From Coffea arabica (lineage: Eukaryota > Streptophyta > Magnoliopsida > Gentianales > Rubiaceae), in assembly GCF_036785885.1 (NCBI RefSeq), contig NC_092312.1, forward strand, positions 18,370,001-18,434,000: a stretch of DNA of 64,000 bases, read 5' to 3'. Below the pieces are notes generated by a model. It made no database searches, was not told where the DNA came from, and was given only the letters and a program-made list of their open reading frames with translations. Positions 9,684-58,477 of this stretch are shown piece after piece (positions within the stretch are counted from its first letter, which is position 1; the number at the start of each line of letters is the position of its first letter). The translations under genes and the position numbers were made by a program.

Positions 9684-12600
9684 CTACGTCGCATGAAATG
9701 AGAGATCTTCTAATTGTTGTGTATCCACCGGTGAAGGTGCACGAGTCAACGCGCACTGCGCAGTTGTTGTCTTTGGGAAAGCAATGACATCCCTGATCGA
9801 ATGACTGCCTGCCAACAGCATGACCATTCTATCTAACCCATAAGCTATCCCTCCTGTGCAACAAATATATTAATCAATAACCAAAGTTCAAAAGCAGACT
9901 GTGGAAATGGAGGAGGCTACTGGCTTAGTCCAAGCAAGAAATCTAAAAATTATGTTTGTCAAACCAGCACTCGATACTCAGCATCCAAGCAGAAACCTGC
10001 TCTACAGCCGTGAACACACTCGAGCTATCTGTTCTTAACAACCATATACACCAATCATGTGACTTCAAACTCGCTCTGATGCTAAGCTAAATTATTTAAA
10101 TGATTCCCTACATAATCTTCTTAACTATCACTGCATCAAGCAATACAATGAAACATTACCTTGTAGCATATACCAAAAAGCTCCACAAATATACTTTGAG
10201 TGCAATCAATTTTCTAACCTTGTAAAATTAATAAGCTTTTTTGCATGTGGCTGATGTTTCTCATTCAATAAATGAGACACACAAAAGCTTCACAAAAAGT
10301 TCTCTTGCGACCCAGCATTCAAGACATGGTCTGGTACACATATGAACAAAATATCAACTAATCAAACATTTATATGCACATTTTCAGGGAAACAAAAAGG
10401 AAAAGAAGAATGATCTATTAACCTCAAAGACTCCAAAAACAAGGTAAATTTAATATAAATTGGGCCAGAGTTGGCCCTTCTATCTTCTATTGGCAATAAG
10501 CAGCAGTTCCACTTGACATGGATTGGAGGTTTATTTATTCTCCAAGGAAGAAACATATCTTTCAGTGCAATGCAACAAGAAGAGTAATCATGAACTATAA
10601 GAAATGTGCAGTAGGATGTTTCGAATTAACTGAGTAGTATTCCTTGGGCAAGAAAATGTCCCATACCATGTGGAGGAGCACCCAGATCTAGAGCTTCCAA
10701 GAGATAGCCAAACTTGGCTTCAGCCTGCAGACCAAAAAAGAATGTATGAAAATACACAACAGTGCAAACGTTGCTCTATCATGGCAATCAGAAATAGTTT
10801 GTAAGCTTTCAATAACTTCCAATTCACGGCAAAATTTCTTAACTCAGTTATTGCTTTCCTTCTTCCAATGTATTTAACTCAAAATACGAACACAAAAAAG
10901 GCAATTGACAGTCCCCTTGATCATTAAAAGGAAAATAAAACTGGAAGATTAAGGATAAAGGGTGGTCTGAGAAAAGTTTTCTACTAACAAAGTTCAATAT
11001 TCACACACATAATTGAAGGACTCGAAATGCAAACTATATACCCATCTCAATGTGAAATACTGCAATAGTGCAATTCATGTTTTCAGTAATTATTTAGAAG
11101 CACGCTCTTGCCTATATCAGAGAAATGGAACACACTGAATATTTGACCCTTCAAAGCTATAAGTGCTGACCACATACATGAGCAAACAGTCAAATGTTTT
11201 AGACCCAAAATAGCATGACAAGGATTTCCTCAGGCCTTACCTGTTCACGCGAAATGCCAATGATTTCCAAGACCTGTTCTTGGACGTCACGCTTGTAGAT
11301 TCTCAAACTTCCTCCACCAATCTGCCAGATAAGCAGAAGATTCCATTATACTTAAATTTATACATGCATACCTAATCTTGCAAAGATAAAAAACAAGATG
11401 TATGTACCTCCACACCATTGTAAACCATGTCATAAGCCAAAGCACGAGCAGAGAACAAATCCTTCACATCTTCTGGGTTAGGGGCAGTGAAAGGATGATG
11501 CAAGGCCTGAAAAACAACTACAATTTAACTTACACCAGAAGAGATACAAGAAAGGAAGGACCATATTTTAAGCATATAATCTCAAATTTTGTCAGCATAA
11601 TTTGATCTTAACCGTGATGGTTATTATATTAAAAACTACCCTTATATTTCTTTCCACAATAGCTTGCATTAATCCCATATTAAGTCATTTCTAAAATCTA
11701 ACTTAAACGTTTTACAAAACCTAGCTTACAGAAAAATCAGCTAACACTGAAATTACTAGTACAAGTCAAAATACATCCTGAGAATGCAGAATCCACTTTA
11801 CCACCATACATAATGAAGAGGTCAATTCTACAGACAAGAATAGTGAGGTGGAAACAACACTATTACCTACTTCTTCAAGTAAAATACATCATAAACCTAA
11901 ATAAGAGAATAGTACAAAAACTATAATCATAGCACCAACCTCAAGCCTCTGTTCAGCATCATTCCACTCAAACATAGGAAAATCAGTCACCCAAAGGATT
12001 GAGTGCCTGGACTAAATGACACCAAATAGACAAAGTGAGATGTGTAAAAATAATTAATCCAAGTTTCCTTTCCTTTTTCTTTTAAATCCAATAGTATATT
12101 GCATGAAATTAAAAGCTTTAAGCAGTAAACTTACAGGATCAATCAAGCCCAAATCATGGGCTACATACAACCTCAACCTATCTAAAGTTTTATTTACTGA
12201 TGCAGGCTGACCCACTGCAAACAAGATGAGATCACCTGATCCCGCAGATAAGTGTTTGAGTAACTTGTCTTTCTTTGTGGGGTCCAAGCATGATACCAGT
12301 GGGGAAATCCCTTCAATTGCCCCTAAAAGATATACATCAAGCACTAAGAACAATAAAATCTGCAAAATGCGATGAAATGTGCAAACAATCACAAACATCA
12401 CTCTCACCATCTTCTAACACCTTTAAGAAAGGCAAACCCTTTGCTCCAGATTTAATAGCTTCATTGTAAATATCACCTTTCTTCAAAGCATTATTTGAGT
12501 ATGCCTTTCCTCCTGAAGGGACACACAAGGCTTTAACAATTCCCCCACTCTTCAAGGTATCTGCAAATGCCTTGAAGGAGGAATCTGAAAATATCTCAGA

Positions 12601-15600
12601 TACCTGCAAGCCAAGAAAAAGTTGCTGCCTAAGACCATTAGGTAATCACTCCAAAAAACAAAAAATAGATTTAAGATTTCATAATATAGTATCATCTATG
12701 GTACCAAAAGAATGACAACCTGTCTCTCCCCCCCCCCCCTCTCCCAAAAAAAAAAGAATAAGGGAAAAGAAACTATTTTTGTTGGGACAAACTGAAGAAG
12801 GGGCTATATACTGCATTGGCAGTTCTCAGTAGTTCTCAGTTGAGAAAATTGAAAGAGATAAAGAATAAAAACAAATAATGCATGAAAACCAACAAGCTTT
12901 ACATCTTTCAATCCAAGATCAAAACGAGTATCTGGCCTATCTGAACCGTATTGGCTCATGGCTTCAGCATAAGTGAGCCTTGGGAAAGGGTCAGGTAGCT
13001 GGACACCTTTGATCTCAAGGAAAACCTGCAGGAAAATATTTATCATGCCCTGTCAACTTACCAGTTGAATATCAGAAGTAACGGCAAAAGTAATATCAAT
13101 ACAGAATTAAGAGTTGTATTAAACATCTAAATTGGGCCATCAGAGCCCTCATCTACCCATGTAACCCATGGCTCACTAGACCCTAATTCCATGCTACAAA
13201 AGGAAAAATTGGACAGCATCCAGCTTTAAACTTCAGGGGAAAAAATCAAGGGGAAAAAATCAAGCTTATTAGAACAAACAACTATTTCGGAACAAACCTA
13301 CATATATATATTATTTGCTGATACCAAAAGGAATCATATGATAGACTACAAGCATGACGAGGTAAAATTTACACTAAAACATACGTATAATTTGTTTCAA
13401 TCTTCTAAAAGATATTTAGTCTGATAATGCAAAAGATTGTCATGTTTACTCAGAAGTAATAATTATTTTCGGCACCACATATAGGCCAAGCATGTGCACA
13501 GCTGATGATGTTTAGCTTCTATACAGCAAAATGTTATACAAGTTTTAACAAGATTAATGCTATTACAGTTCAATTCCCACACCCAGCCCATAACAGAGGA
13601 GAATGTTACTAAAATTGGAAAGTAAAAGATCATACAAAAATCTACCAGAAGGTGCGAAACCTAGGTCATCAAATTCAAATACTAACCAATCAGTTGAAAA
13701 ACAGGATTCAGCCATCATATAGGCTCTGGTCGAAAATAACATTCGATTCAGAATTTCTGGAAGGTATTAAAAATTCAAATCAACAGTTTAGAGCCCCACA
13801 ATGTAGGTAAATTTAGTTATAATATTGCTATGGAAGCACAGCTTCTTTTAATGAAAATTTCAGGACATGTTTTACAGAATTTTGAGCAGAAAATATATCA
13901 CACTTCAATAGAGGATTTTATCAAAGGTCTGAAGGGACTCACAAATTGTGAAATCAGATTATTGCTCTACTATCTATTAGGCTATCAACTACAGCAAACT
14001 AATTGGCAGGATCAAGGAAGTGAGAGGGGTCAGCAGTAAACAATCAATATATTTTAGGCTATGGAAAAAACTATGGCCTCTGAAGCATTGCATGCTTTAA
14101 AGCCACAAACTACATTGAATAGAAAACACACATCATAGGGTATGGAACATGCAAAATGTGAGAATTGATGGTAAATAACCCATGCTACCTCTTCAACTAT
14201 GTGGTTCAAAGATCAACATCACCAAAATCCCTTATCATCATATAGTGATATTACTTACTAATTTTATTTCTTCTCTTGTAAATGAGGCAAGCACTAGTAT
14301 TCTTTTACTTAAGCAGTTAAGTGTCTCAGAAACAACTAGAACAACAAACCATGACCCAAGCAAACTCCAGTTTACCCACTCCAGTCACAATACCACAAAT
14401 TAGCGAGAGGAAGCAGAAACAAAAGTAGACCTTCAATCATTAAGAAATGCCCAACTCGACCAGAAAAGTAAAAATATCAATTATCAAGAGAACTAACAGC
14501 AATCTGCAGAGAGAAGCAAAACATAAGCCCATGGTCAAAAAACTTCAGAAAGTTTTCACCTCAAGCGAATTTCCTCCTTTACAGATTCTCTGGCATCATC
14601 TGCAGTAGTAACTAAGAAAGGCAGCTTAGATCTCACAGTATTCAGAACATGGACACGCTCAGCAGCCACCTGCAAACTTAAGCAATTGTACTAAAACCAC
14701 CAAAAAGAATAATCATCCAGGAGCAAATCCAAGTTAAGGAAATAATAAAACAGCGGTCATCAGTTATTAGAATTCATCTTCCACAATCAACTACACATCA
14801 TAATTCCACAACCAACTTTGCAGAAACTAAGTAAATTGTGGAGCACTGAGATAAAGAACTCATCCTTGAACATATGATTATAACATCAGAAACAATTCAT
14901 TACCTTTCCTTCTCTCCTAGTCAATCACCAGCATCAGACTTCGATTTTCTCTCTCTCTGATGCACCTAAGCTGTTATCTTCTTCTGATAACACTTATAGA
15001 ATAGCAATTCAAACAAGGTCGTATTTTAACCATATTAATCATTACACTTGGAAGGTTTTTGTGGGGGAAAACATAAAACATTGCCCTTGGATTGTTCTTG
15101 TTACACCTGTTAATTTTAACACTTGAACACTTCAAAAATTGGGCCAGGGGGACTGCTTGAACAAAAGCCTAAAAAGGTTTTCCTTCAAATCACAATGCAA
15201 AACACCCTTGACACAATAGATCTGGTTGAATTCATATCAACTAGCACCACGCCTTGTTTTCAGCCATAGGCATGTTATTCTCAGTTTCTTAAAGAGTTCA
15301 TGGAGACTAAACAGACAGGTGAACTGCCAAAGGAGACCTCAAATTCAAATTTTCTAGACTTACTATAGTGAGAATGTAATCAGTGACTTCCTTCAGCTGC
15401 TTTTTCTGTAATTATTGCAGAATACATCCATCTATGCATAAAGATTTAAAGCTAAAGCAGAACACACCTCTACCGCACCAGTCCTCATCTTCATGTTGAC
15501 AGACTCAATTGGGCGAGGCCGAACAACACCTTCTACGGCCACCACATACTCAATTCTTAAGTCATTCACTGTTGAATGAGCATCAGGAAATTCGTTGGGA

Positions 15601-16446
15601 AGCGTCGTAATCTGAAATTCCCAAAGCACAAAAGGTAAAGACCAGTTCAACAACTCGCCCCAAAGATACTCTTTGTCGCAATTTCATCAAATAGCATATT
15701 CATAGCTACTCTTTCCCATGCAGCATTTATCGCAAATTAACAAGCATTCTCAACAAAGAAAACAAACCAAAACACGGATTGTAGACTGTAAGTACTGGTA
15801 ACTTCAGACAGATTAGTTCAAATAAAATTCCATCAATGTTCAAATTTTTCCACGTTTCCTAGGCAGAATGCCTTAAATTTCTGACTTAAGTAAACAAACT
15901 AATGGTCATCATGTTAAAAAAATATTTATTACAATGGAAGAATAAAAGCAATAGCCAGTCAAGAACTATTACATGCTCAAGAAATGAAAGATTGAGAATT
16001 CATAATTTTTTTTTTTAAAAAAAAAAAGGAGAGAGAAGAAAATGAAAAATAAGTACCTGTAAAACACCGGTATGGTCACGGAGATTAACAAAAGTGAGGC
16101 CACCATGAACACGATGAAGAGCAACCCAGCCGCAGAGCCTGACCCGTTTATTCACATCAGCTTCTGACAATTCACCGCAGAAAGCGGTCCGGCTCACCCA
16201 TTCAAGAGAAGGGATGGAGCGAGATACTTTAGGGGAAGCGGCAACAAGTGGTGTTTCAGTTGAAGAAGGAGAAGGAGACGAAGCAGAAACAGAAGGAGTT
16301 GAAATGCAGCGTTTAGGAGGTTGCGTGGGTTTGAAGCTGGGGCTGTGCGAGTTTAGGAATAGAAGAGGCAATGGAGGTGGTTTGAGTGAGAAGTGTTTAT
16401 AGCGGAAGGCTATACTGGGCAGAGCGCGGAGGAGTTGTGCGGCCAT
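9684..16446 (-). pseudogene. Organellar aspartyl-tRNA synthetase, copy A: exons 1-3 and 8-15, catalytic exons 4-7 deleted
   Basis: Homolog of the dual-targeted plastid/mitochondrial bacterial-type AspRS (class II; charges tRNA-Asp). Minus-strand exons: 16446-16057 (Ser/Pro-rich transit peptide, then the OB-fold part with HGGLTFVNLRDHTG), 15611-15468, 14669-14560, 13025-12903 ([24 protein letters not shown]), 12603-12408, 12322-12135, 12011-11940 (HSILWVTDFPMFEW), 11506-11408, 11321-11241, 10724-10667, 9853-9684 ([11 protein letters not shown], the motif 3 Arg; [11 protein letters not shown]). Every kept junction has GT-AG ends and matching phases. Exons 4-7, which copy B retains with class II motifs 1 and 2, are missing through a 1541-bp deletion between exons 3 and 8. 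Exon 3 ends two bases into a codon and exon 8 starts in phase 0, so joining them would be out of frame. This is the only copy with the C-terminal third, and it cannot encode an active enzyme. Confidence 0.88.
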
Positions 16447-16924
16447 CTCGCGGCAGCCGCTTCAATTTTTCAATTGAGACTCTGAGCAGATAAGTCCATG
16501 GCCGGGGGACGAAGCCGAATTGAATTGAGAGTCCAAAACTATGTCGTTTTCCTGGTCCTTTTACTTCAGTGTAGATTGGGCTTGGCCTACCAAAGCTTGC
16601 TGAGCCAGCCTGCTCCATTTGATCCCAATGTTGTTGTTGACCCTAACCATAACGTGATTGGGGTTGGGCATGTACGCTCGATCTATTTTAAAATGAAACA
16701 AAGTTGGGCCAAGTTACGTAGGAAAATCAAGTGAGTTAAAATAACTTCCTTGCGTATATTTGTTTGACAAGAAAAATTTGTAGATAAAATAAGTAGTTAA
16801 TTATACTTATTGAAAATATTGTGGTAATCAAATATTTTTCCTTTAAAGTCCTGTAAATTTGGATGCAACATGCAGAAAATTAAGGAAGTATTTGTTGGTA
16901 AAGAAAAATATGGAAGAGTAAAGG
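16447..16924. promoter_or_regulatory. AspRS copy A upstream region
   Basis: The stretch beyond the AspRS ATG is less AT-rich up to about 16,680, as expected for a promoter/5' UTR, then becomes AT-rich. It is repeated nearly identically at 31,460-31,935. No separate gene is recognised; a 78-codon plus-strand frame at 16498-16734 is conserved only because the whole block is duplicated. Confidence 0.45.
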
Positions 16925-18042
16925 AAAGTTAGATATATTTTCCTTTAGGTCCTTTGAGGTTTAACCAAATTGCCAAATAAACTCTATAATTCTACAAAGT
17001 TATAGATAACCCTCTTTGTGGTAAACAAATACAATAAAGACACTTTTGGGTGTGAGTTAATTATTTTACTAACATTATTGGTCCTCTCATCATTAATGTT
17101 ATCAACATCGTCTTATGCTAGAAATCCTAGAATGCCCTTGAAACCATAAAAATTCCTCATTTCCTTCTACCGGAATCGATGTAATTTGCAAAAGTCCACC
17201 AAGTTGGCTGCTGCCAAATTCGATAATCATGAATTCACAATCAAAATACAACACATGAATCCCATGAGCATCCATCCATACATCAGTATATCCTTTTCAT
17301 TAACACAGCAAAAATTAAATCCAAATGCAACAATTACGAGCTCTTAAAGTGTTATAAAATTAAGTTGGATGTGTACCAAATCGTCAAAAAAAAAAATAAA
17401 AATGTATGCTTTGTGTAAGCCCTACTATATTTGTTTGAGCCTGAATATTTGTGATTGAAATAAAAGAGAATCAAGAAAGAAACGAAGGTAATTGTAAAAG
17501 GGAAATGGCTCATCGAATTTGGTGCACAAAAGGAGAGAGTTAATGAAGCCTGGATGGTGGTTTTGGAGAAAGAACAGAGTTTCGAATTTCATAAAAAGAA
17601 GATTTAGAGCTGAAGTTACAGTAATGCAGCAGTAGCACGGATATTAATGAAGCAAGGGAAGTCCGATTGAACAAATGAAGAACAAAAACAAGTTTGGGAT
17701 TAGTTGGGTCGTACGGTATCCAGTCCACGGCCCAGATACCCACCGTTGAAAAAAAAAAGAAAAAGAAAAAGAAAACACATACTACAGTCTTTTCCGTTTC
17801 CATATTTCCTCAATTTCCTTTCACCAACCTATTTAGTTACCTTTTCTCTTTCCTAGCCTTTATGTTTAATTACATCATTCTCCTTTATATTGTTTTGTTA
17901 TGTCCTATATGCCTGTTATTGAGAAATTGTTTTTCGTTATTTTTGTTTCTTTACTTCTTCTAATTTATTCATTAACTTCTCTTTGGAATGCAAAAATTAT
18001 TATGTTTAGATTGTATTCTCTTCCTTTCTTCCTATCTTTTCT

Positions 18043-18093
<51 letters not shown>

Positions 18094-18290
18094 TTGCTTT
18101 TTTTGACAAGGATTAGTTAAAATTTGCAAATTGTAGGAATAAGGGCATTTTTATCATTTCAGTATCTCAGTTAACAGGGGTTTAGACTCCATCCATTGTA
18201 AGGGTATAATTATAATTTGGTCAAGCTATAGAGTTTATTTGGTGTTTTGGCCCGATTTCAGGGGAGGTAAATGTAATTAAGCCTAAAATG
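16925..18290. mobile_element. TIR-type non-autonomous element, unit 1 copy (about 1.37 kb)
   Basis: The left arm contains CCAAATAAACTCTATAATTC. The reverse complement of the right arm contains CCAAATAAACTCTATAGCTT. Outside this core the arms stay alignable to about 16,925 and 18,290. The interior has a long CT run (about 18,042-18,092) and no coding frame of note. It sits between the AspRS promoter and MADS-A. Unit 2 has the same insertion in the same place, so it predates the duplication. Confidence 0.55.
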
Positions 18291-19472
18291 AATTGGAATT
18301 TACGAGCATATTCATAAGCGCATACGTCAGTCGGTTACAATTCTTTGGTCTCAAGTCACAGCAGCTGTTTTTTTCCTTTTTTTTTTTTTTTCAAACGAAC
18401 GCAGCTGTTGCTATCAGTAAAGTGGAGCGATTTCATTGGTCGGGCGCACAGGCCATCATTTGACGTGGTCTGCAACGTGAATGCAAACGCTTAGAAACTA
18501 ATTATGGCATATGATTAAACAAGGCTACATAAGCGGGCAAGAGTTGTATTAGCTCAGGATATATAAGTACACATTGGAAACGAGTTGAAAACATTGAAAT
18601 CTGTAACATTATTAATGGCTTCTTAACCTTTAATATTTCGCAATGACTAATAATAAGAATAGTAATTATCAATGCATATTTCCATAAATAATTGATGATA
18701 TTTACTACGTCTCTGATATAAGCTACTACTAAATACTAAGCTAAGGTAAGTATATTAAGAAGAAATCAAAATCTTCAAAAATCTTGTAAGCAGTCTTAAT
18801 TATTATTATTATTAGTAATAAATTTGTATCATAACTGAGAAGATAATAACATTAATTATAAACTATGGCATGCTTTTATTTTATATCATTTGGAAAAAGT
18901 TACATGTGCATGGCGTTTGCCCGCTCAATATTACGTCGAAACGAGTGTTCTTTTTTCAAATAACGGTCCAATCGCTTATTACCTTAATTGACATGAGTAC
19001 TTGACAAAGTAACAAAAAATTATTTTACATTCTTGTGATTACAATGTAGTGGCATGTCGTATTACTTTTTTTTTTTTGGGGTTTTGGAAATTTACATATC
19101 ATTCCTTTTATGTATCCAGTATTTTCATATTGAGATTAGAATCGCCCAAAAAAAAAATCTTATGCAATAATAATTACTACTATTTTGTAAGTTCTTATCT
19201 ATATATCAGCATTTACCATTCAAGTGTTACATGCCTTTTAATTGCTTACTCTTTTTTTTCTTTTTTGTCTATTCTGGATTAGGCTGTGAATGTGACCAAA
19301 AGGTAAGAACAAGTTAACAGTCTTGGCTTAAAAGGTAACAAGAAGTTAATAGTCATATCCTAAATGGTAGCAAAAATCTACAACGATGTGGCAGAAACTT
19401 CTAGGAAAATGAACACACCCTTTAAATCCCCAGCCACATTCCTCCCATTGGAACATAATTCCTGCTTAAACA
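18291..19472 (+). promoter_or_regulatory. MADS-A1 upstream region with TATA-like TTTAAAT
   Basis: TTTAAAT at 19421-19427 lies 46 bp before the ATG, preceded by CACACCC. MADS-C genes have the same CCCTTTAAAT word 91 bp before their ATG, so the core promoters look related. The remainder is AT-rich with no other gene. Confidence 0.45.
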
Positions 19473-20138
19473 ATGGCAAGAAAGAGCAAGGGTAGGCAAA
19501 AGATTGAAATGACAAGAATGTCAAAAGAAAGCAACTTACTTGTTACTTTCTCAAAGCGCCGCTCTGGCCTTTTCAAGAAGGCTTATGAACTCTACACACT
19601 TTGTGGTGCTGAAATTGCAATAATCGTTTTCTCCCCAGGGAAAAAGGTTTTCTCCTATGGCCATCCTTGCCTTTACTCCATCATCGATCGTTTCGTAACC
19701 GGAAAAGCTGGCCCGAGTTCGAGCAGTTCGCAAATTGTTGAGGCACACAGGGCAGCGAGCATTCGCGAACTCAACATGCAATTGACTGAAATGCTTAATC
19801 AGTTAGATGCTGAGAGAAAGCGTGGTGAGGAGCTGATCAAACTGAGGACAGCGAGTCAAGGAAGATGCTGGTGGGAGGCTCCGGTTAATGATCTTGGACT
19901 TCAAGAACTGGAGCAACTAAAGGCGGCCATGGAGGAGCTGAAGAAGAATGTGGCCAATCAGGCAGAGAAGTTGATGGTGGAGGCTTCCAACGCGACTGCG
20001 TTTCTTGGGTCATCGAGTTCCAAGGGAGGAGGCCATGTTGGTCCAAGTAACATTGACGCTAAGGTTCCTCCTCCTGGTCTGGGACTTTCTATGACTCCTC
20101 ATGGGTTTGCACTTGGATATGGTCGTGGATTTTTCTAA
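19473..20138 (+). CDS. MADS-A1: type I (M-alpha, AGL62-like) MADS-box transcription factor, 221 aa
   Basis: Intronless, as usual for type I MADS genes. The MADS domain spans about residues 7-66: GRQKIEMTRM, then VTFSKRRSGLFKKAYEL, then LCGAEIAIIVFSPGKKVFSY. The basic SKRR/KK helix contacts CArG-box DNA and the following strand mediates dimerisation. After it come GHPCLYSIIDRF (M-alpha signature region), a Ser run (residues 82-86), a probable coiled coil (about 96-125) and WWEAPVNDLGLQELEQLK (133-150), a block typical of AGL62/AGL61-like proteins. There is no type II K domain. It is transcribed away from AspRS. Family members act in central cell and endosperm, often as M-alpha/M-gamma heterodimers; that role is inferred here. 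It differs from MADS-A2 at four bases (Y41H, E147K, S192I and one silent). Confidence 0.93.
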   Translation: MARKSKGRQKIEMTRMSKESNLLVTFSKRRSGLFKKAYELYTLCGAEIAIIVFSPGKKVFSYGHPCLYSIIDRFVTGKAGPSSSSSQIVEAHRAASIRELNMQLTEMLNQLDAERKRGEELIKLRTASQGRCWWEAPVNDLGLQELEQLKAAMEELKKNVANQAEKLMVEASNATAFLGSSSSKGGGHVGPSNIDAKVPPPGLGLSMTPHGFALGYGRGFF

Positions 20139-22639
20139 ATCACATATCCAGAAATTGGTCTGATCTATTGTAGTGGTATTTTGTTCTGTTGAATCATATT
20201 TGGGTGTCTGTATTGTATCGTATAAGTAAGTCTGGGTATTAATCTTATCTACTTTATTCCTGTGTACTTTTGTTGATGTTGTACAAGAAGCCTTTTATGC
20301 CAAAACAGTAAAAATGGGATAAAGTTTTCTTCTTCGATGTATTAACAATCTATCCCATATTTGGAATCAAGGAAAGAAACCAATAGGAGATGATTGTAAA
20401 GTAAAAAGAAAAAACATAAGAAACTTTTTTTTCTGGCTTGAGACATAATCTTCAAGTCTGCCACATGCGATGAAACTGTCAAACAAAGATTTGAATCCAA
20501 CGGTGAATCAAACCGTCAGCATTGGATGAATAATAACGGTGATAGTGTACGCACTGTTAGTGTATATAAGATTTACTCTAATAATAGAACAGTGTTAAAG
20601 AATTGCATGACTTAGTTTGAACTTTTTTTCCCTAATATCTCTTCACACCAGTATAATAGGGCTTTTCAGTAGGTATACTAGGTAAATATCGAGAGGCTAA
20701 AATTAAAAATTAAAAATCTATCCAAACTAATGCTTTTCGATACCGAAGGCAGAACGGCTTCGTAATTCTTAGCTTCCTTCGTCCATTTCGGTGAAACATC
20801 AAACAACCTATACATGTGAAAATTTTCCCAAAAAAAATGTTTAAAAATAGTTTCCAGAAAGAATTCTTAAACAACGCACTCAATTTGTTAATGTACTCAT
20901 CTTTTTTTTTTTGGACTTTTTTTTTTGGTATAAGTGGAATGTCTTGAACTTTGGATCTCTCGTAACTCCTTTCTGCCTTATCATCTATCACATCCCTTCC
21001 CCCTCCCTCCTCTCTCAGATTAATGTACTCATCTTGATGCTAGGTATTCACATTTATAACAATTTTTATCAAGTTTAGTACTTGTTTTGAGGATCTAAAT
21101 TCTTCGCGATTGCTAGGGCTATTAGTCGAGCTTTTTGAACAGGGTTTTGATAAGTCCAAACTTTACTCACAAATTAAATAGTGCTTTTAGGTTAGGATTT
21201 TGTTAAAAGATTCAAATTCAACTCACACTTGTATAAACGTTTCAAAGTCAGAAGTTTAACCTAGTAAGATCCTAAATTAGCTCATATTTAATTCGAGTTT
21301 AATATTCAGGGTCAAAATCTGTCAAGTCCGATTAAAGATAAAATCGAACGGTATTTTTTTTTTAACCGAATGGGTCAGACTCAGACTAATTCGACTCCAT
21401 TAACAATTCTAATAGTTGCAGGAACACTTGCATAATACATTTAACAGTTGGTTCGACCGAGTTGGTTCGAACTAATCTCAGCTATTAATTTGAAATTTAA
21501 ATAAATTTTAAATCAACAATCAAGATAAGCTCTAGCCTTGCTTGGTCGATCCCCACAATTAAAACCTTTAAAAGTCTTCTGCCAACATCACAGAATCCCA
21601 ATTCGTGGTTTTGATGCCTGATTGACACTATACAAAGTTGTTTAGGATCACGGTTCGAAAGTGCATCGCTACAAATGAAAAGCATTTAGGTTCCATTTTG
21701 ATTGGACGAAACGTCTTTTACAATAAAATTCACCATTCTTGTGCAAAATGTTTGATCATAATGAGTAAATTTTCATCCAATATTTGAATGAATTACTGAA
21801 AAAAAAAATGAATAGCATGTTGTTGCTGTTTCTTATGTTGGTTTTCTCATACTTGCACGTGTACACGTTAGTTCCTTTTACAATACCCATAGACAGACGA
21901 TGTTTCCCCTTGTAGCACAAAAGAAGAAGAAGAGTTAAAAAAAAAAAAAAAGGAATAGACGATGATTGTATAGTGTTCATAATGATAATCAATAGGATAT
22001 TAGCTAAATAGGTAGAGAAAAGTTGGGGGGATTTAATCCATGGGCCTTGAGATCAAAGTTCAGTGAATAAGGTTTCTGGGGTTTTCAGCTTGTCATAACT
22101 GTATGACACTGACCTACAACAAAACCCCACCAACAAAAAACCTTAGAAAGTACTATTGATGCAGATACGATGATAGAATTCTTGCTTTGATGACCCATTA
22201 ATTGTTACTTTAAAGACGATAATGATGCTAACCAGTTGAAGGTTGTCAGATTATTGTATGGCTTTCCGTTAATAGCTGCATATATCATACAGTACTATAT
22301 TTGAATCTTTGGAAGATTTCTTACCAAGTACTGTTTTCTGATCACTTTCAAGTAAGAACGTGTGAATAATTATCAATTTGGCATCTTCTTAAATTTTTTG
22401 ATTCGTGGTAAATTTTAAGGTTTTACTTTTTTTTTTCACCGATTTCTTCACTTGTTAACAAAATCCCTGTAATTATTAATTAATAGCAGGAGGTAAGTAG
22501 CTACAATTCCTTTTTGACAACCAAAAAAACTAACAATTCCTCTGAATTCCTATTTGCCCTTTGAATTCTTAGCATATAGGGCGGGCATGTGAATTGTGAA
22601 TTGTGAAGCTGCTGCCAACTCACTTGCGACGTTATGATT
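20139..22639. other. Intergenic DNA between MADS-A1 and the orphan MADS-C promoter (unit 1)
   Basis: It is homologous to 35,038-37,440 of unit 2, with small indels. The block at about 20,480-20,595 is largely absent from unit 2 (around 35,385-35,405). No coding sequence is recognised in either copy. Several T and A homopolymers are present. Confidence 0.6.
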
Positions 22640-23024
22640 CACTTCTTATCCTAATTACTAGTACTAGCTAGCATTTTATGGGGAAAACAGTTAGATGATA
22701 CTAGCATTTTGCTCCTCTATAAATGCTCTTCCATCTCTTGGCTCTTTATGAAGACACAAGTACGTAACGTGCCAAAAGCACTTTCTGTGCTCTAACAAAT
22801 GCCTAGAGAGTGAGCGAGTGAGCTAGTGCCTATTGATCATCAATTCATACCCAAGATGATCGGTAGAGAAACACATACATATGAGATGAGTTGACTTTGG
22901 CTTGCAATAATAACTGATACTTCACCTTGTAATGCCAACTAAGAGAAGATTTATGTCACACCATCATATAGCTAGCATTAAGATCTAAGATTTTTTTAAA
23001 CTCCCAAATCAAGGGTAATTATGC
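22640..23024 (+). promoter_or_regulatory. Orphaned MADS-C upstream region (its gene is deleted in unit 1)
   Basis: It matches the DNA upstream of MADS-C1 (about 37,430-37,787) and MADS-C2 (about 58,478-58,817), including the TATA-like CTCTATAAATGCTCTTCC near 22,714. Homology stops at ATTATGC (23,018-23,024). The next base already belongs to sequence found only beyond the MITE in units 2 and 3 (GTGTCATTGCTTAAATTG). The MADS-C coding region and the MITE, 1594 bp in unit 3 coordinates, are therefore missing here. Confidence 0.8.
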
Positions 23025-24157
23025 GTGTCATTGCTTAAATTGTTTCAAAGCCTGCCCTTCATTCATTCACCCCCAAAAAATAATAATAATAACAAAACGG
23101 AACGTAGAGAATAACTTCACTGTGGTTCAATTCCTGGACGTAATTAGGTGAGGCAACTTATACAATGCACAAAAAGTAGTTGAGTTGATTTTTTCCATTC
23201 AATTTGAGCGGATGAGGGGTGAAAGTGGAATTTAACAAGCTCCATTCCTAGAGTCCGAGCTACATCGCACTTGCCTGGCACGGATTAAGGAAATAATTGG
23301 AAAAATTGTTTACTAAGAGTCCTATATACTTAATACATGTAAATCATACTCGATTACCGCCCACGGATTAAGGAAATAATTGGAAAAGTAGTTTCATTTT
23401 TATTGATCTATTTAACGAAGTTGAATTGAGAACATTTTGGAGACACTTTAGTTGTCACCAAGCTGAGGAAATAAATTTTTCTAATTTTAACCTAGGCAAG
23501 AAAATACTTAGCCAAAAAAAGAAGAAGAAATAATTAGATTTTTGGAAGTATATATGTTTCTATATGTTGATGCATGAATTCATCCAAACAATATGTATAT
23601 CGCTTTGCTAAAAGATAATAAACCATTAACTACTTAAACTAACTACACATGCCATTAAATAACAATTTGATCGTTTGTTTTTTTTTTTTTAATTTTGATG
23701 AAATGATTAGATCGATAGTTCTCAACAATGCCATTTTCTTGGTCAGTGTGAGAGAGTAAATTATGTTTTGCCAGGAAAAGAAGAAAATAGCTGTTAATTC
23801 TAGACAAATTGTCCATTTCTAAGTTTAATCCATCAATCAATGAGGAGTTAACACTAATTTATATTTTGTCGAAAAAAAAGAGAGAAAAAGATAGAGATGT
23901 TACTCTACATAAATCATCCATTTCTAAGTTTAATCCATCAATCAAGGGGAAATTAGGAGGGTGAAACAATGGAAACTGGAGAAAATATATCGACCGAATC
24001 ACAATAAAATCTTTGACGTTTTTAGGAAACAAAATTACGGGTAAATATTAAGGAAGGTGGAACCTTATATAATAATAGGATGGGATGCCAAAGCAATGTA
24101 GCTAGCCCTTAATTCATCAAAATCCCACCAAAAGACAAAAAAAAAAAAAAGGCGAAA
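23025..24157 (+). promoter_or_regulatory. MADS-B1 upstream region: TATA box and two internal direct repeats
   Basis: CCTTATATAATAATAGG near 24,063-24,079 is the best TATA candidate, about 85-95 bp before the ATG. Two exact direct repeats are visible. One of 26 bp starts CACGGATTAAGG (23,279-23,304 and 23,362-23,387). One of 29 bp starts TCCATTTCTAAG (23,812-23,840 and 23,917-23,945). All three MADS-B genes keep this upstream layout; unit 3 has a few base changes in the second 26-bp copy. Confidence 0.55.
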
Positions 24158-24880
24158 ATGAACAACATGATGATGAAGAAGAAGACGACCCAAGGTCGAA
24201 AAAAAATCGAGATCAAGAAGATAGACAACTTGAGCAACAGGCAAGTAACCTTCTCCAAGCGAAGAGTCGGTCTCTTCAAGAAAGCAAGTGAACTTTGCGT
24301 CTTGACCGGGGCAGAAGTTGCCATCATCGTTCATTCTTTGGGCAAGCGCGTCTTTGCTTTTGGTCACCCCAACATTGACGCTGTTATTAACCGCTATACC
24401 ACGGGATCGGCATCATCATCATCATCATCATCCTCCTCGTCATCCGTTGCTGATCCGAAAATCCCATTGGGTGCTCATGAGATTCAACAACACAACCGAC
24501 ACTATGCTAAAGTGTCCAAAGAATTAGAGGTCGAGAGAAAAAGAAAGGAATTGATTGAAGGTTCGAAGTTAGAGAACGGTGGGAGTTTTTGGTGGGATGA
24601 CCCAATTGAGCATATGGGTTTGGAGGAGCTTCAACAGTATAAAGCTTCATTGGAAGAGTTGAAGAAAAAGCTGTTGATGAGAGCCGATGACTTGATGTTG
24701 TTGAAAAATTCTTCTTCTTCTTCAACTAATTTGGGCTTAAATAATAGCGGTGATATCAATCCCGGCGTGACTGCAGTTGGTTGTGATGATATGTTATTCA
24801 ATCAGACGACGACTGAATACTGCAACAACTCCATCGTTCCTTATGGTTCTGATGACTTCGGAAATTCTCTGCAGGTTTGA
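24158..24880 (+). CDS. MADS-B1: type I (M-alpha) MADS-box transcription factor, 240 aa
   Basis: Intronless. The MADS domain is at about residues 13-71: GRKKIEIKKI, VTFSKRRVGLFKKASEL, TGAEVAIIVHSLGKRVFAF, then GHPNIDAVINRY. It differs from the A and C types by Val in SKRRVGLF, by HSLGKR for FSPGKK, and by a lysine-rich N-terminal extension (MNNMMMKKK). A Ser run (residues 86-96) is encoded partly by a TCA microsatellite. FWWDDPIEHMGLEELQQYK (145-163) is the family block after the coiled coil. The ATG follows an A-rich leader; the two extra Met codons just downstream make the exact start slightly uncertain. It differs from MADS-B3 by two bases (one E157D, one silent). Central-cell or endosperm function is a family inference. 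Confidence 0.93.
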   Translation: MNNMMMKKKTTQGRKKIEIKKIDNLSNRQVTFSKRRVGLFKKASELCVLTGAEVAIIVHSLGKRVFAFGHPNIDAVINRYTTGSASSSSSSSSSSSVADPKIPLGAHEIQQHNRHYAKVSKELEVERKRKELIEGSKLENGGSFWWDDPIEHMGLEELQQYKASLEELKKKLLMRADDLMLLKNSSSSSTNLGLNNSGDINPGVTAVGCDDMLFNQTTTEYCNNSIVPYGSDDFGNSLQV

Positions 24881-25489
24881 AGATCTGTGGTTGGCAAAGT
24901 CCGGATAAGTTTAATATATGCATGGCTTTCAGCAGTTTTTTTTTACTGTTTAGTTTATTGACGATTTTTCACAGTGTTGTTAGCGTTCGTTCCTTATGAA
25001 TTACTATAAATTAGGCTCTTGCAGTGTTTTATTTTATTGTGTTGACTGATGTCTCTTTTTTTGTTTTTGTCTTTCAGTGATTTTTAAGTAGGGAGTATTC
25101 TTTATCTCCCCCTCTATGCGTGCATATATTTATATATATGTGTGTGCGATCCAATCTTAAATAATTGATATTAGTGTTAAAAAGCACACTTACTTTGTGT
25201 GCAATTTAGAAATCATTATTATTTTTTATGAATTTGTAAATTTTATTGTTTCATTAATAAATTTTATAAGAACTTTTCATTAACAAACTTCAATTTATAA
25301 TTAATTTTTTCTTCAATTAAAAATAGATAATTTGGTAATTGCAATATTTAGAGTGATTATGTTGGTAAATGTGATCACGTGACTTAGGGTAAAAAATTAA
25401 TTTTCTAAGAATAAAATTGAAAGTTCGAAAAAAAATTGTAGAAAATATTTACACTGGCTGTCAATGCCCTCTTCTTATATATTGTATAA
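24881..25489. other. MADS-B1 3' flank up to the duplication joint
   Basis: AT-rich DNA, conserved after MADS-B2 and MADS-B3 up to the same GATTGAGG joint. TTATATATATG-type runs occur near 25,127. No gene is recognised. Confidence 0.6.
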
Positions 25490-25505
25490 GATTGAGGGCC
25501 TGGAC
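25490..25505. other. Tandem-duplication joint 1 (MADS-B flank / AspRS exon 11)
   Basis: MADS-B 3' flank (TATAAGATTGAGG) fuses to AspRS exon 11 and intron 10 (GCCTGGACTAAATGAC). Copy A reads AGGATTGAGTGCCTGGAC at 11,995-12,012, so GATTGAG is shared at the joint. The same joint is found at 53,243 and 62,874. It cuts exon 11 about 7 bases into its coding sequence. Confidence 0.85.
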
Positions 25506-26200
25506 TAAATGACACCAAATAGACAAAGTGAGATGTGTAAAAATAATTAATCCAAGTTTCCTTTCCTTTTTCTTTTAAATCCAATAGTATATTGCATGAA
25601 ATTAAAAGCTTTAAGCAGTAAACTTACAGGATCAATCAAGCCCAAATCATGGGCTACATACAACCTCAGCCTATCTAAAGTTTTATTTACTGATGCAGGC
25701 TGACCCACTGCAAACAAGATGAGATCACCTGATCCCGCAGATAAGTGTTTGAGTAACTTGTCTTTCTTTGTGTGGTCCAAGCATGATACCAGTGGGGAAA
25801 TCCCTTCAATTGCCCCTAAAAGATATACATCAAGCACTAAGAACAATATAATCTGCAAAATGCGATGAAATGTGCAAACAATCACAAACATCACTCTCAC
25901 CATCTTCTAACACCTTTAAGAAAGGCAAACCCTTTGCTCCAGATTTAATAGCTTCATTGTAAATATCACCTTTCTTCAAAGCAGTATTTGAGTATGTCTT
26001 TCCTCCTGAAGGGACACACAAGGCTTTAACAATTCCCCCACTCTTCAAGGTATCTGCAAATGCCTTGAAGGAGGAATCTGAAAATATCTCAGATACCTGC
26101 AAGCCAAGACCATTAGGTAATCACTCCAAAAAACAAAAAATAGATTTAAGATTTCATAATATAGTATCATCTATGGTACCAAAAGAATGACAACCTGTCT

Positions 26201-26220
26201 CCCCCCCCCCCCCCCCCCCC
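26201..26220. repeat. Poly-C tract in the AspRS exon 8/9 intron (one in each copy)
   Basis: Run lengths read from the sequence are 12 C in copy A (12,728-12,739), 20 C in copy B (26,201-26,220), 19 C in copy C (53,953-53,971) and 20 C in copy D (63,585-63,604). Each is followed by TCTCCC and an A tract. Confidence 0.85.
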
Positions 26221-29200
26221 TCTCCCAAAAAAAAAAAAGAAAAAGGGAAAAGAAACTATTTTTCTTGGGACAAACTGAAGAAGGGGCTATAGACTGCATT
26301 GGCAGCTCTCAGTTGAGAAAATTGAAAGAGATAAAGAATAAAAACAAATAATGCATGAAAACCAACAAGCTTTACATCTTTCAATCCAAGATCAAAACGA
26401 GTATCTGGCCTATCTGAACCGTATTGGCTCATGGCTTCAGCATAAGTGAGCCTTGGGAAAGGGTCAGGTAGCTGGACACCTTTGATCTCAAGGAAAACCT
26501 GCAGGAAAATATTTATCATGCCCCGTCAACTTACCAGTTGAATATCAGAAGTAACAGCAAAAGTAATATCAATACAGAATTAAGAGTTGTATTAAACATC
26601 TAAATTGGGCCATCAGAGCCCTCATCTACCCATGTAACCCATGCCTCGCTAGACCCTAACTCCATGCTACAAAAGGAAAAATTGGACAGCATCCAGCTTT
26701 AAACTTCAGGGGAAAAAATCAAGCTTATTAGAACAAACAACTATTTCGGAACAAACCTACATATATATATATATATATTATTTGCTGATACCAAAAGGAA
26801 TCATATGATAGACTACAAGCATGACGAGGTAAAATTTACACTAAAACATACGTATAATTTGTTTCAATCTTCTAAAAGATATTTAGTCAGATAATGCAAA
26901 AGATTGTCATGTTTACTCAGAAGTAATAATTATTTTCGGCACCACATATAGGCCAAGCATGTGCACAGCTGATGATGTTTAGCTTCTATACAGCAAAATG
27001 TTATACAAGTTTTAACAAGATTAATGCTATTACAGTTCAATTCCCACACCCAGCCCATAACACAGGAGAATGTTACTAAAATTGGAAAGTAAAAGATCAT
27101 ACAAAAATCTACCAGGAGGTGCGAAACCTAGGTCATCAAATTCAATTACTAACCAATCAGTTGAAAAACAGGATTCAACCATCATATAGGCTCTGGTCGA
27201 AAATAACATTCGATTCAGAATTTCTGGAAGGTATTAAAAATTCAAATCAACAGTTTAGAGCCCCACAATGTACGTAAATTTAGTTATAATATTGCTATGG
27301 AAGAACAGCTTCTTTTAATGAAAATTTCAGGACATGTTTTACAGAATTTTATGTGCAGAAAATATATCTCACTTCAATAGAGGATTTTATCAAAGGTCTG
27401 AAGGAACTCACAAATTGTGAAATCAGATTATTGCTCTACTATCTATTAGGCTATCAACTACAGCAAACTAATTGGCAGGATCAAGGAAGTGAGAGGGGTC
27501 AGCTAAATGAAACGTATCTTAACTCACTGGATCATTCTAATGCTTTTATCCCCACCTCATTTCATTTTGTGATTTGTTACCTCATCAAACTATTTCTACC
27601 ACCCAAAAAAAAAAAAAAAGACAACCTTCCTAATCAAATCTTCATTAAGTCTGAGCATGTCCTCTAAGGGAGTGAAAGCCATCTCCATATCTAGTTGCGT
27701 AAATTCAGGTTGTCTATCTGCCCTTAGATCTTCATCCCTGAAACACCTGCAAAGCAAGAGCAGATGAAGTCACATTGTGGTCTTGGTTGTATACTAATAA
27801 ATGACCCAGCAATAAATGCAAAATTTCTTGATCCCCCCTCTAGAATCCTTTTTCCTCATAATAATCTGAGGGGGGAAGGGGGGAGATCCTCTTCACATAA
27901 GTTGAACAATGTGTGGCAGAATGTAAAGATGCAAGAGAAAAGGGGAATTTAAATGAAAATCAACAGTCTGATCAAATAGTCGTAAACTTAAAACTTATTA
28001 CCTTGCAATTTGATAGTATTTATCAAAACCAGAGACCATCAACATTTGTTTGAACAGCTGCGGACTTTGGGGCAAGGCATAAAATGTTCCTGGCTTTAAA
28101 TGATGGAATTAAGCAATCAGATTTTTATTTGATGACTGATATATCTCTGGAAAACATAAACTTGAAACGTAGAGAATTAGATGTTAAAAAGCCAATAAAA
28201 CAAGTAAATATTTTTCATCCTTGATGTTTCGATGTATCAAATGCTGTATGGAAATTGTTCAGCCTCCATCACTTCCAAAAGATCTACACGAGTTGTATTA
28301 AATGGCGTTCTCCTTTTCTTATCTTACAAGTTGCCTTGAGCGGGTTCTCAACAACAAAGGTAAAAAGTTTGGGGAATAACAGCTCAAATGCAATGAAATT
28401 TTAACTCTGAGTATAAATTTGAGAAGCTAAAAACATAGGTAGCCATAAAAGGCTGGAGATTAAGCGTAGCTTAGAAAACACAATTTGGCTTGAATTCGAG
28501 ATTGAAGCCTGATGGGATGGGAATTCTTTCAAAATCACTAAGTCATCACCAGGACAAACGACAACATCAATACCAAGATTACATTTTGTTTTTCAATTCA
28601 CTTCAACAGAAAACAAGGGAAAACACCAAAAGAGTGAAGAGGAGAAATTAGAGATAATCCCGAGATAGGTACATTTAACAGGGCAAATACTGTACCTGAA
28701 TTCTTGAAGGGACAAGATAATCCCGAGCACCTTCTGGGGTAGATCTAGATAGAATTGGAGTCTCAATCTGCCTTACAAACATGAAGGCAAGGATCAGAGA
28801 GTGGAAGAGACAGACTCCAGTAGAATCTTCTGATTGCACTAAGATGTTAAAATGCAAACATTACCTCCACAAAATCATGTACATCCTCAAGGTACCTTCG
28901 GATGAGTTTTACCACTTGATGCCGCAATATAATGTTGGAAGTCATTTGTGGCCGGCGCAAATCAAGGCATCGATATCTAGTAACAGGTATGGGGACCATT
29001 TAATCCGTACAGTTTAAGAGACATGCATCGAAGATCTTACAAGCAGTAAACAATCAATATATTTTAGGCTATGGAAAAAACTATGGCCTCTGAAGCATTG
29101 CATGCTTTAAAGCCACAAACTACATTGAATAGAAAACACACATCATAGGGTATGGAACATGCAAAATGTGAGAATTGATGGTAAATAACCCATGCTACCT

Positions 29201-31459
29201 CTTCAACTATGTGGTTCAAAGATCAACATCACCAAAATCCCTTATCATCATATAGTGATATTACTTACTAATTTTATTTCTTCTCTTGTAAATGAGGCAA
29301 GCACTAGTATTCTTTTACTTAAGCAGTTAAGTGTCTCAGAAACAACTAGAACAACAAACCATGACCCAAGCAAACTCCAGTTTACCCACTCCAGTCACAA
29401 TACCACAAATTAGCGAGAGGAAGCAGAAACAAAAGTAGACCTTCAATCATTAAGAAATGCCCAACTCGACCAGAAAAGTAAAAATATCAATTATCAAGAG
29501 AACTAACAGCAATCTGCAGAGAGAAGCAAAACATAAGCCCATGGTCAAAAAACTTCAGAAAGTTTTCACCTCAAGCGAATTTCCTCCTTTACAGATTCTT
29601 TGGCATCATCTGCAGTAGTAACTAAGAAAGGCAGCTTAGATCTCACAGTATTCAGAACATGGACACGCTCAGCAGCCACCTGCAAACTTAAGCAATTGTA
29701 CTAAAACCACCAAAAAGAATAATCATCCAGGAGCAAATCCAAGTTAAGGAAATAATAAAACAGCGGTCATCAGTTATTAGAATTCGTCTTCCACAATCAA
29801 CTACACATCATAATTCCACAACCAACTTTGCAGAAACTAAGTAAATTGTGGAGCACTGAGATAAAGAACTCATCCATGAACATATGATTATAACATCAGC
29901 AACAATTCATTACCTTTCCTTCTCTCCTAGTCAATCACCAGCATCAGACTTCGATTTTCTCTTTCTCTGATGCACCTAAGCTGTGATCTTCTTCTAATAA
30001 CACTTATAGAATAGCAATTCAAACAAGGTCGTATTTTAACCATATTAATCATTACACTTGGAAGGTTTTTGCGGGGGAAAACATAAAACATTGCCCTTGG
30101 ATTGTTCTTGTTACACCTGTTAATTTTAACACTTGAACACTTCAAAAATTGGGCCAGGGGGACTGCTTGAACAAAAGCCTAAAAAGGTTTTCCTTCAAAT
30201 CACAATGCAAAACACCCTTGACACAATAGATCTGGTTGAATTCATAACAACTAGCACCACGCCTTGTTTTCAGCCATAGGCATGTTATTCTCAGTTTCTT
30301 AAAGAGTTCATGGAGACTAAACAGACAGGTGAACTGCCAAAGGAGACCTCAAATTCAAATTTTCTAGACTTACTATAGTGAGAATGTCATCAGTGACTTC
30401 CTTCAGCTGCTTTTTCTGTAATTATTGCAGAATGCATCCATCTATGCATAAAGATTTAAAGCTAAAGCAGAACACACCTCTACTGCACCAGTCCTCATCT
30501 TCTTGTTGACAGACTCAATTGGGCGAGGCCGAACAACACCTTCTACGGCCACCACATACTCAACTCTTAAGTCATTCACTGTTGAATGAGCATCAGGAAA
30601 TTCGTTGGGAAGGGTCGTAATCTGAAATTCCCAAAGCACAAAAGGTAAAGACCAGTTCAACAACTCGCCCCAAAGATACTCTTTGTCGCAATTTCATCAA
30701 ATAGCATATTCATAGCTACTCTTTCCCATGCAGCATTTATCGCAAATCAACAAGCATTCTCAACAAAGAAAACAAACCAAAACACGGATTGTAGACTGTA
30801 AGTACTGGTAACTTCAGACAGATTACTTCAAATAAAATTCCATCAATGTTCAAAATTTTCCACGTTTCCTAGGCAGAATGCCTTAAATTTCTGACTTAAG
30901 TAAACAAACTAATGGTCATCATGTTCAAAAATATTTATTACAATGGAAAAATAAAAGCAATAGCCAGTCAAGAACTATTACATGCTCAAGAAATGAAAGA
31001 TTGAGAATTCATTATTTTTTTTTAAAAAAAAAAAGGAGAGAGAGAGAGAAGAAAATGAAAAATAAGTACCTGTACAACACCGGTATGGTCACGGAGATTA
31101 ACGAAAGTGAGGCCACCATGAACACGATGAAGGGCAACCCAGCCGCAGAGCCTGACCCGTTTATTCACATCAGCTTCTGACAATTCACCGCAGAAAGCGG
31201 TCCGGCTCACCCATTCAAGAGAAGGGATGGAGCGAGATACTTTAGGGGAAGCGGCAACAAGTGGTGTTTCAGTTGAAGAAGGAGAAGGAGACGAAGCAGA
31301 AACAGAAGGAGTTGAAATGCAGCGTTTAGGAGGTTGCGTGGGTTTGAAGCTGGGGCTGTGCGAGTTTAGGAATAGAAGAGGCAATGGAGGTGGTTTGAGT
31401 GAGAAGTGTTTATAGCGGAAGGCTATACTGGGCAGAGCGCGGAGGAGTTGTGCGGCCAT

Positions 31460-31934
31460 CTCGCGGCAGCCGCTTCAATTTTTCAATTGAGACTCTGAGC
31501 AGATAAGTCCATGGCCGGGGGACGAAGCCGAATTGAATTGAGAGTCCAAAACTATGTCGTTTTCCTGGTCCTTTTACTTCAGTGTAGATTGGGCTTGGCC
31601 TACCAAAGCTTGCTGAGCCAGCCTGCTCCATTTGATCCCAATGTTGTTGTTGACCCTAACCATAACGTGATTGGGGTTGGGCATGTACGCTCGATCTATT
31701 TTAAAATGAAACAAAGTTGGGCCAAGTTACGTAGGAAAATCAAGTGAGTTAAAATAACTTCCTTGCGTATATTTGTTTGACAAGAAAAATTTGTAGATAA
31801 AATAAGTAGTTAATTATACTTATTGAAAATATTGTGGTAATCAAATATTTTTCCTTTAAAGTCCTGTAAATTTGGATGCAATGTGCAGAAAATTAAGGTA
31901 GTATTTGTTGGTAAAGAAAAATATGGAAGAGTAA
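31460..31934. promoter_or_regulatory. AspRS copy B upstream region
   Basis: Near-identical duplicate of 16,447-16,924, retaining the full block upstream of the AspRS ATG. No gene is recognised. Confidence 0.45.
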
Positions 31935-33200
31935 AGGAAAGTTAGTTATATTTTCCTTTAGCTCCTTTGAGGTTTAACCAAATTGCCAAATAAACTCTAT
32001 AATTCTACAAAGTTATAGATAACCCTCTTTGTGGTAAACAAATATAATAAAGACACTTTTTGATGTGAGTTAATTATTTTACTAACATTATTGGTCCTCT
32101 CGTCATTAATGTTATCAACATCGTCTTATGCTAGAAATCCTAAAATGCCCTTGAAACCATAAATTCCTCATTTCCTTCTACCGGAATCTACGTAATTTGC
32201 AAAAGTCCACCAAGTTGGCTGCTGCCAAATTCGATAATCATGAATTCACAATCAAAATACAAACATGAATCCCATGAACATCCATCCATACATCAGTATA
32301 TCCTTTTCATTAACACAGCAAAAATTAAATCCAAATGCAACAATTACGAGCTCTTAAAGTGTTATAAAATTAAGTTGGATGTGTACCAAATCGTCAAAAA
32401 AAAATAAAAATGTATGCTTTGTGTAGGCCCTACTATATTTGTTTGAGCCTGAATATTTGTGATTGGAATAAAAGAGAATCAAGAAAGAAATGAAGGTAAT
32501 TGTAAAAGGGAAATGGCTCATCAAATTTGGTGCACAAAAGGAGAGAGTTAATGAAGCCTGGATGGTGGTTTTGGAGAAAGAATAGAGTTTCGAATTTTTC
32601 ATAAAAAGAAGATTTAGAGCTGAAGTTACAGTAATGCAGCAGTAGCAGGGATATTAATGAAGCAAGGGGAAGTCCGATCGAATAATTGAAGAACAAAAAC
32701 AAGTTAGTGGAATAGAAAAACATACTACACTCTTTTTCTTTTCCATATTTCCTCAATTTCCTTTCACCAACCTATTTAGTTACCTTTTCTCTTTCCTACC
32801 CTTTATGTTTACTTACATCATTTTCCTTTATGTTGGTTTGTTATGTCCTGTATGCATGTTATTAAGAAATTGTTTTTCGTTATTTTTGTTTCTTTACTTC
32901 TTCTAATTTATTCATTAACTTCTCTTTGGAATGCAAAAATTATTATGTTTAGATTGTATTCTCTTCCTTTCTTCCTATCTTTTCTTCTCTCTCTCTCTCT
33001 CTCTCTTTGCTTTTTTGACAAGGATTAGTTAAAATTTGCAAATTGTAGGAATAAGGGCATTTTTATCATTTCAGTATCTCAGTTAACAGGGGTTTAGACA
33101 CCATCCATTGTAAGGGTATAATTATAATTTGGTCAAGCTATAGAGCTTATTTGGTGTTTTGGCCCGACTTCAGGGGAGGTAAATGTAATTAAGCCTAAAA
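31935..33200. mobile_element. TIR-type non-autonomous element, unit 2 copy
   Basis: Orthologous to the unit 1 element at 16,925-18,290, with the same inverted arms. The internal CT run is much shorter (about 32,986-33,007). An approximately 60-bp block containing an A-rich tract, present near 17,700-17,770, is absent here. Confidence 0.55.
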
Positions 33201-38932: not shown

Positions 38933-39500
38933 ATATTCATGAGATAAAAAAAGTAGCTCAAAAAATAATAAAGGTGGTGAGAAAAAATTGTGTTAAAAAT
39001 CCCCAATAAAGTTTTTCCCAAACAACTACTATTCAAACAAACAATTTGGCTTCTAATTAGGATTAAAAGCAGTGAAACATCTCCAACAATCAACCGAGCT
39101 GCATGATACCCCTAGCGATTCTTGCACCTACTTTGGACCTTTGATCTGAACTGAATTAATGAAAAAGATAACTTCATCAATTTCATTAGATAAATGACCT
39201 TTGCAGCTTCACCCTCACCTTCAGTGGGATCCTTAATTGACGAGGCTAACTAAACAAAGGGAATTTGTCTTTTGATTTCCAGGGCAGGCTAGTCGTCCAT
39301 TAGTGGCGGTCCGTGGACTTTTACTTTGGACATCTTACATGTTATGTTAGTTGAATTCCGTAGCACAGCCTTCACATCACTTAGAGCTATCAGCTATAAT
39401 ATTTGACAGTTGAGTTATTTTTCATGTTGTAAACATGTAACCGAGAGAAAACATGAACATTGTACTCTTCCTAACAGAGACCTTAGTTAGTGTACCAACA

Positions 39501-58472: not shown

Positions 58473-58477
58473 TTAAT

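Follow-up and report, generated by a model that had tools for sequence, protein, structure and literature searches.

Partial tandem duplication and a later deletion as a probable origin of incomplete organellar aspartyl-tRNA synthetase gene copies in a MADS-box array

If every copy of an organellar aspartyl-tRNA synthetase (AspRS) gene at a locus is partial, how did the copies come to be broken, and where does the working enzyme come from? The locus lies in a window (the whole 64-kb stretch of DNA analysed) that is free of N and, judged from its genes and introns, is plant nuclear DNA. The window holds partial AspRS copies A, B, C, and D and no complete one. A preliminary description had said as much, although its further phrase, complementary losses, is misleading because B, C, and D share one junction. 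It had also called the organellar AspRS of Arabidopsis single-copy and embryo-essential. The first point is supported: in the cited sections of two papers, At4g33760 is the sole AspRS listed as plastid/mitochondrial (PMC7564348, PMC13308715). The second found no confirmation in the passages cited next, although a plant left without its only organellar AspRS would be expected to suffer severely. In the relevant part of a 2022 paper, 21 of 45 aaRSs are cited as needed for endosperm formation and embryogenesis, with AspRS unnamed there (PMC9635353). Likewise, the cited part of a 2010 review on the plastid genes that embryogenesis requires includes several aaRS genes, while "At4g33760" and "aspartyl" occur zero times in it (PMC2944999).

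The explanation that we consider probable is a partial tandem duplication from an intact gene, a later loss of 1541 bp in copy A, and a supply of enzyme from outside the window. The underlying cause is likely ordinary, namely partial tandem duplication and recent pseudogenisation.

Layout of the array

Comparison of the 64-kb window with itself revealed a young tandem array. Its minus strand bears the partial AspRS copies and its plus strand bears seven single-ORF MADS genes. The comparison runs up to base 64000, short of the right-hand limit of the array and of the genome beyond. The array is composed of the following blocks:

11997-14034, self-match with 25490-27503
14032-17703, self-match with 29042-32715
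23025-26616, self-match with 60412-64000
50323-54098 and 58471-59958, further array blocks

A tandem-repeat scan of the window returned 8 short rows, and an Rfam scan of the window returned 0 matches.

The parent gene and its composite product

The parent gene has 15 exons on the minus strand and encodes a cyanobacterial-type AspRS (the organellar AspRS). Exons were placed by searching with an E. coli AspRS sequence as query, and their borders were set at AG acceptors and GT donors. Within the window, copy B is the sole carrier of exons 4-7, and copy A alone has exons 11-15 complete. Copy B matched E. coli residues 123-255 at 28978-27623 (E 3e-9 or better), and copy A matched the residues from about 441 on. 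Elsewhere in the window, matches to these two stretches were at chance level (E 0.29 or worse), with the exception of exon 8 matches starting at residue 248.

Joining exons 1-10 of copy B to exons 11-15 of copy A gave an open frame of 675 residues without a stop. This composite scored 785.5 bits against NF001750 (cut-off 443; full-length) and 741.8 bits against TIGR00459 (cut-off 373.85), figures that hold for the composite only, since each copy by itself is less than full length. When prokaryotic genomes were scanned, the composite was 56-61% identical (best segment) to the 80 loci with cyanobacterial titles kept of the 573 matches listed. The OB-fold, a complete class II core, and the GAD insertion domain occur together only in the composite and in no product of a single copy. 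Solved bacterial AspRS structures align to composite residues 85-671. The about 85 residues that precede this enzyme body are consistent with a transit peptide and may be one. Given the clean splice sites and the open 675-residue composite scoring above cut-off, the parent gene looks to have been intact when copy B was made from it.

Copies B, C, and D share one duplication junction

Three of the copies end at an identical novel junction, at which the start of exon 11 is joined to MADS-beta flank:

25490-31459, minus strand, copy B of organellar AspRS, exons 1-10 and the opening bases of exon 11, followed by MADS-beta flank
Copy B exons 1-3, minus strand: 1, 31459-31070; 2, 30621-30478; 3, 29679-29570
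Copy B exons 4-7, minus strand, inside 27501-29041: 4, 28976-28865; 5, 28767-28696; 6, 28093-28002; 7, 27746-27626
Copy B exons 8-10, minus strand: 8, 26498-26376; 9, 26096-25901; 10, 25815-25628
53242-54098, minus strand, copy C of AspRS: exon 10, 53567-53380; exon 9, 53848-53653; then sequence without AspRS match
62874-64000, minus strand, copy D of AspRS: exon 10, 63199-63012; 9, 63480-63285; 8, 63882-63760; cut by the window end
25489/25490, also 53241/53242 and 62873/62874, no strand, tandem-duplication junction

Copy B was described beforehand as exons 1-10 with its C-terminal third, including motif 3, replaced by MADS flank, and the junction at 25489/25490 confirms this. Alignment with solved bacterial AspRS places in exon 15 the site that we take to be motif 3; lacking exons 12-15, copy B lacks it. 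The product of copy B would have 525 residues by way of the exon 11 acceptor, or 542 with intron 10 retained. The 525-residue form contains the OB-fold, the GAD domain, and positions 1-184 of the 308 in the class II core profile. The statement that C and D are shorter holds for C, which has only exons 9 and 10 and differs from B at 5 of 857 aligned bases. It does not hold for D, which is cut by the end of the window. All 1127 bases of D are identical to B (25490-26616 vs 62874-64000), and beyond the window D may continue as a B-like copy.

As one junction is common to B, C, and D, the simplest reading is that their 3' part was left out of the duplication, and not that it disappeared in three separate events. 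The same junction together with C's own later changes indicates that it most simply arose once, and makes an assembly slip unlikely. The original sequence is kept outside the first copy: the block 9684-11996, which spans exons 12-15 and almost the whole of exon 11, has a single occurrence in the window. We infer that an intact 15-exon gene once stood here on the minus strand. A tandem duplication with its left end inside exon 11 and its right end beyond a MADS-beta gene would have copied exons 1-10 along with MADS genes. Copies B, C, and D, which carry the junction, would have been 3'-truncated from birth, and B would never have had exons 12-15. A duplication that starts inside a gene leaves truncated inner copies and a whole outermost copy; copy A, as the outermost, would have retained all exons after the duplication.

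The flanks before B and D (23025-25489 and 60412-62873) differ at 6 of 2460 aligned bases and by 4 indels, and the B-D pair is closer than A-B or B-C. This near-identity points to one of three causes: a duplication of very recent date, gene conversion, or a stretch that the assembly repeats. Patterns of bacterial promoters and terminators were also sought near the B junction, although they say little about plant DNA.

A separate deletion in copy A

Copy A retains both ends of the gene and lacks part of its middle:

9684-16446, minus strand, copy A of organellar AspRS, exons 1-3 and 8-15 present, exons 4-7 absent
Copy A exons 1-3, minus strand: 1, 16446-16057; 2, 15611-15468; 3, 14669-14560
Copy A exons 8-11, minus strand: 8, 13025-12903; 9, 12603-12408; 10, 12322-12135; 11, 12011-11940
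Copy A exons 12-15, minus strand: 12, 11506-11408; 13, 11321-11241; 14, 10724-10667; 15, 9853-9684
14031-14034, no strand, deletion junction of copy A, 1541 bp missing, 3-bp microhomology AGC at 14032-14034

Exon models and self-comparison agree on this anatomy, which had been noticed before, including the size of the loss. The missing piece is exactly 1541 bp, corresponds to 27501-29041 in copy B, and occurs once in the window. The deletion runs from intron 3 to intron 7 and removed 397 coding bases of exons 4-7 and, with them, about 132 residues from the beginning of the class II core. We take motifs 1 and 2 of AspRS to lie in this region. Splicing exon 3 to exon 8 joins phase 2 to phase 0, and the resulting frameshift leads to a stop after 237 residues, leaving a product with the OB-fold domain alone. 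With exons 4-7 missing and the frame shifted, copy A as assembled should be inactive. Judging from class II synthetase biochemistry, neither the A nor the B product should charge tRNA.

The preliminary description saw here a MADS expansion that broke a housekeeping gene. The replacement of exons 11-15 by MADS-beta flank in B, C, and D invites that reading, but the junction truncates only the copies, and a duplication starting inside the gene leaves the outermost copy whole. Moreover, the lesion in A, between introns 3 and 7, lies 2.0 kb inside the edge of the duplicated segment (11997) and at least 9 kb from any array junction, the nearest being 23024/23025. The MADS expansion made truncated side copies; that it directly broke the gene is not supported and is very improbable. 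On our preferred explanation, copy A would have lost its 1541 bp later, by a separate illegitimate deletion with 3-bp microhomology. The microhomology fits end-joining and proves little, since a random join would share at least 3 bases about 5% of the time by our hand estimate.

Alternatively, the assembly may have dropped the 1541 bp from copy A, which would then be a normal gene. Copies at 98-99% identity are hard to assemble. Assembly collapses usually use long repeats, however, and the ends of this deletion share 3 bp only; the 1541 bp are single in the window, and no N lies at the junction. We consider such an error unlikely.

Divergence between copies A and B

The frequency of substitutions between A and B did not differ between the left side of the deletion (28 of 1993 aligned bases) and the right (28 of 2411; P=0.50), and A therefore does not have the look of a patchwork of two sources. 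BLAST identities of 95.9% and 98.3% on either side had suggested such a chimera, but these values count gaps, and we rejected it. Non-exon sequence differed at 43 of 3238 bases (1.3%) and exon sequence at 13 of 1166 (P=0.65). By typical plant rates, the non-exon value places the A-B split of the order of 1-3 million years ago, and this age is a maximum if the haplotypes joined by the duplication had diverged beforehand.

Evidence for selection on the two copies is mixed. Neither the exon and non-exon divergence nor the ratio of dN (0.0081) to dS (0.0180; NG86), at about 0.45, shows strong purifying selection after the split. Among the 382 whole codons of exons 1-3 and 8-10, 12 differ, of which 7 are replacing and 5 synonymous. 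Conservation among 80 cyanobacterial proteins is lower at every one of the 7 replaced residues than at any of the 5 synonymous ones (exact one-sided P=0.0013), in a test that covers 12 codons, was chosen post hoc, and has cyanobacteria as its yardstick. The replaced residues also show lower conservation than sites drawn at random from a set of 298 (P=0.009). This is expected if A and B mostly diverged under selection on the protein. Copy C's 3 own replacements sit at conserved positions, though not significantly so (3 sites, P=0.16), as expected of a dead copy. In our reading, selection acted on A during most of the A-B divergence, and its breakage is recent.

A recent break bears on whether the deletion is heterozygous, with the other haplotype keeping exons 4-7 and the assembled one being a recessive null allele. 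The parent gene looks intact at the time B split from it, the 1.3% non-exon divergence between A and B makes the deletion young, and divergence is alike on both sides of its junction. We hold heterozygosity to be possible, though somewhat less than an even prospect. It is a sub-case of our preferred explanation that differs only in the place of the working gene, such that our confidence in one overlaps with that in the other.

Source of the working enzyme

Could the two large copies together still make the enzyme? Copy B lies upstream of A on the same strand, in transcription order, which the preliminary description had left unmentioned, and the needed exons, splice sites, and phases are intact. 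Splices from B exon 7 to A exon 8 and from B exon 10 to A exon 11 would both be in phase. As the native 3' end is gone from B, its transcription could run on into A. A full enzyme might thus arise by read-through splicing from B to A or by recurrent exchange between their exon 8-10 blocks, which span 2.0 kb with a longest identical run of 217 bp. Through a single such exchange, about 13.5 kb would be lost and the two copies would merge into one complete gene. Read-through, however, needs an intron of 13.6-14.6 kb and the skipping of five exons with good acceptors. On the strand in question, nine AATAAA signals separate B exon 10 from A, and MADS genes run antisense in the interval. Nor do the intact exons prove anything, as little decay is expected in so young a pair. 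A working split locus, in which an essential gene would persist in two separate broken parts, its intron containing MADS genes, is therefore extremely unlikely in our estimation.

A gene elsewhere, the other haplotype, and an assembly error had been named at the outset as the options to consider, and they are the right three. We think it probable that the functional gene sits at a different place in the genome or on the second haplotype. Under our preferred explanation, no copy in the window as assembled would charge tRNA-Asp, and a gene at another locus or an allele with exons 4-7 would supply the enzyme.

If the deletion is real and fixed, the plant recently came to rely on another locus for organelle function. 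Lineages that lose different copies are in a situation that can yield hybrid incompatibility. Should the deletion instead be heterozygous, a recessive null would sit on the assembled haplotype and would deserve to be flagged. Gene annotation may also be misled: we guess that a predicted AspRS model at this locus could wrongly fuse A and B.

Comparison with known systems

Partial, catalytically null copies of plant aaRS genes have a precedent in the fragmented aaRS genes of Arabidopsis and rice (Saga et al. 2020, PMC7564348). The cited part of that study lists 14 Arabidopsis and 7 rice fragments, with At4g33760 bearing no truncation mark; here, in contrast, all organellar AspRS copies in view are partial and stand in tandem with MADS genes. 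The pTAC14 case in Mimulus, as set out in the cited part of Zuellig and Sweigart 2018 (PMC5896889), is alike in that the ancestral copy of a gene for organelle function is non-functional and another locus provides the function. The second locus is known in Mimulus, whereas here it is hypothetical. A literature search for AspRS, MADS-box, and "tandem" together found no paper, which does not show that nothing is in print.

MADS genes and other array content

The seven MADS ORFs comprise two alpha, three beta, and two gamma copies:

19473-20138, plus strand, MADS-alpha of unit 1, single ORF with SRF-TF domain; copy at 34372-35037
24158-24880, plus strand, MADS-beta of unit 1, single ORF with SRF-TF domain; copies at 51908-52630 and 61540-62262
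37957-38628, plus strand, MADS-gamma of unit 2, single ORF with SRF-TF domain; copy at 58987-59658

Domain scans covered 3 of the 7 ORFs (one each of alpha, beta, and gamma), the other four being read as ORFs only. The SRF-TF domain was found at E 1e-20 or better and no K-box in a scan up to E 0.01, as in type I MADS genes, and we take the array genes to be of this type and AGL61/AGL62-like. The array resembles the class of tandem single-exon type I MADS-box genes of AGL61/AGL62-like kind in its intronless SRF-TF ORFs within a young array. It differs in that the repeat unit here carries the 5' two thirds of an unrelated gene.

MADS-gamma is present in units 2 and 3 and absent from unit 1, where the join at 23024/23025 shows no microhomology. 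This absence is a second deletion in the unit that holds copy A.

Other sequence accompanies the repeats. On the minus strand at 2739-5063, a 774-codon stop-to-stop stretch contains a segment that appears membrane-like by eye and gave no Pfam match. In unit 3, 4.4 kb of other sequence (54099-58470) replaces the 5' part of AspRS and MADS-alpha; three pieces of it were tested, with no Pfam hit. Neither this segment nor 38933-50322 has long terminal or inverted repeats, as marks of mobile elements, at the settings used. The latter segment, 11.4 kb found in unit 2 only, bears AFG1 ATPase-like pieces on its minus strand (two Pfam matches below the curated cut-off) and an ORF at 40599-41078 with a DPBB domain (E 6e-12).
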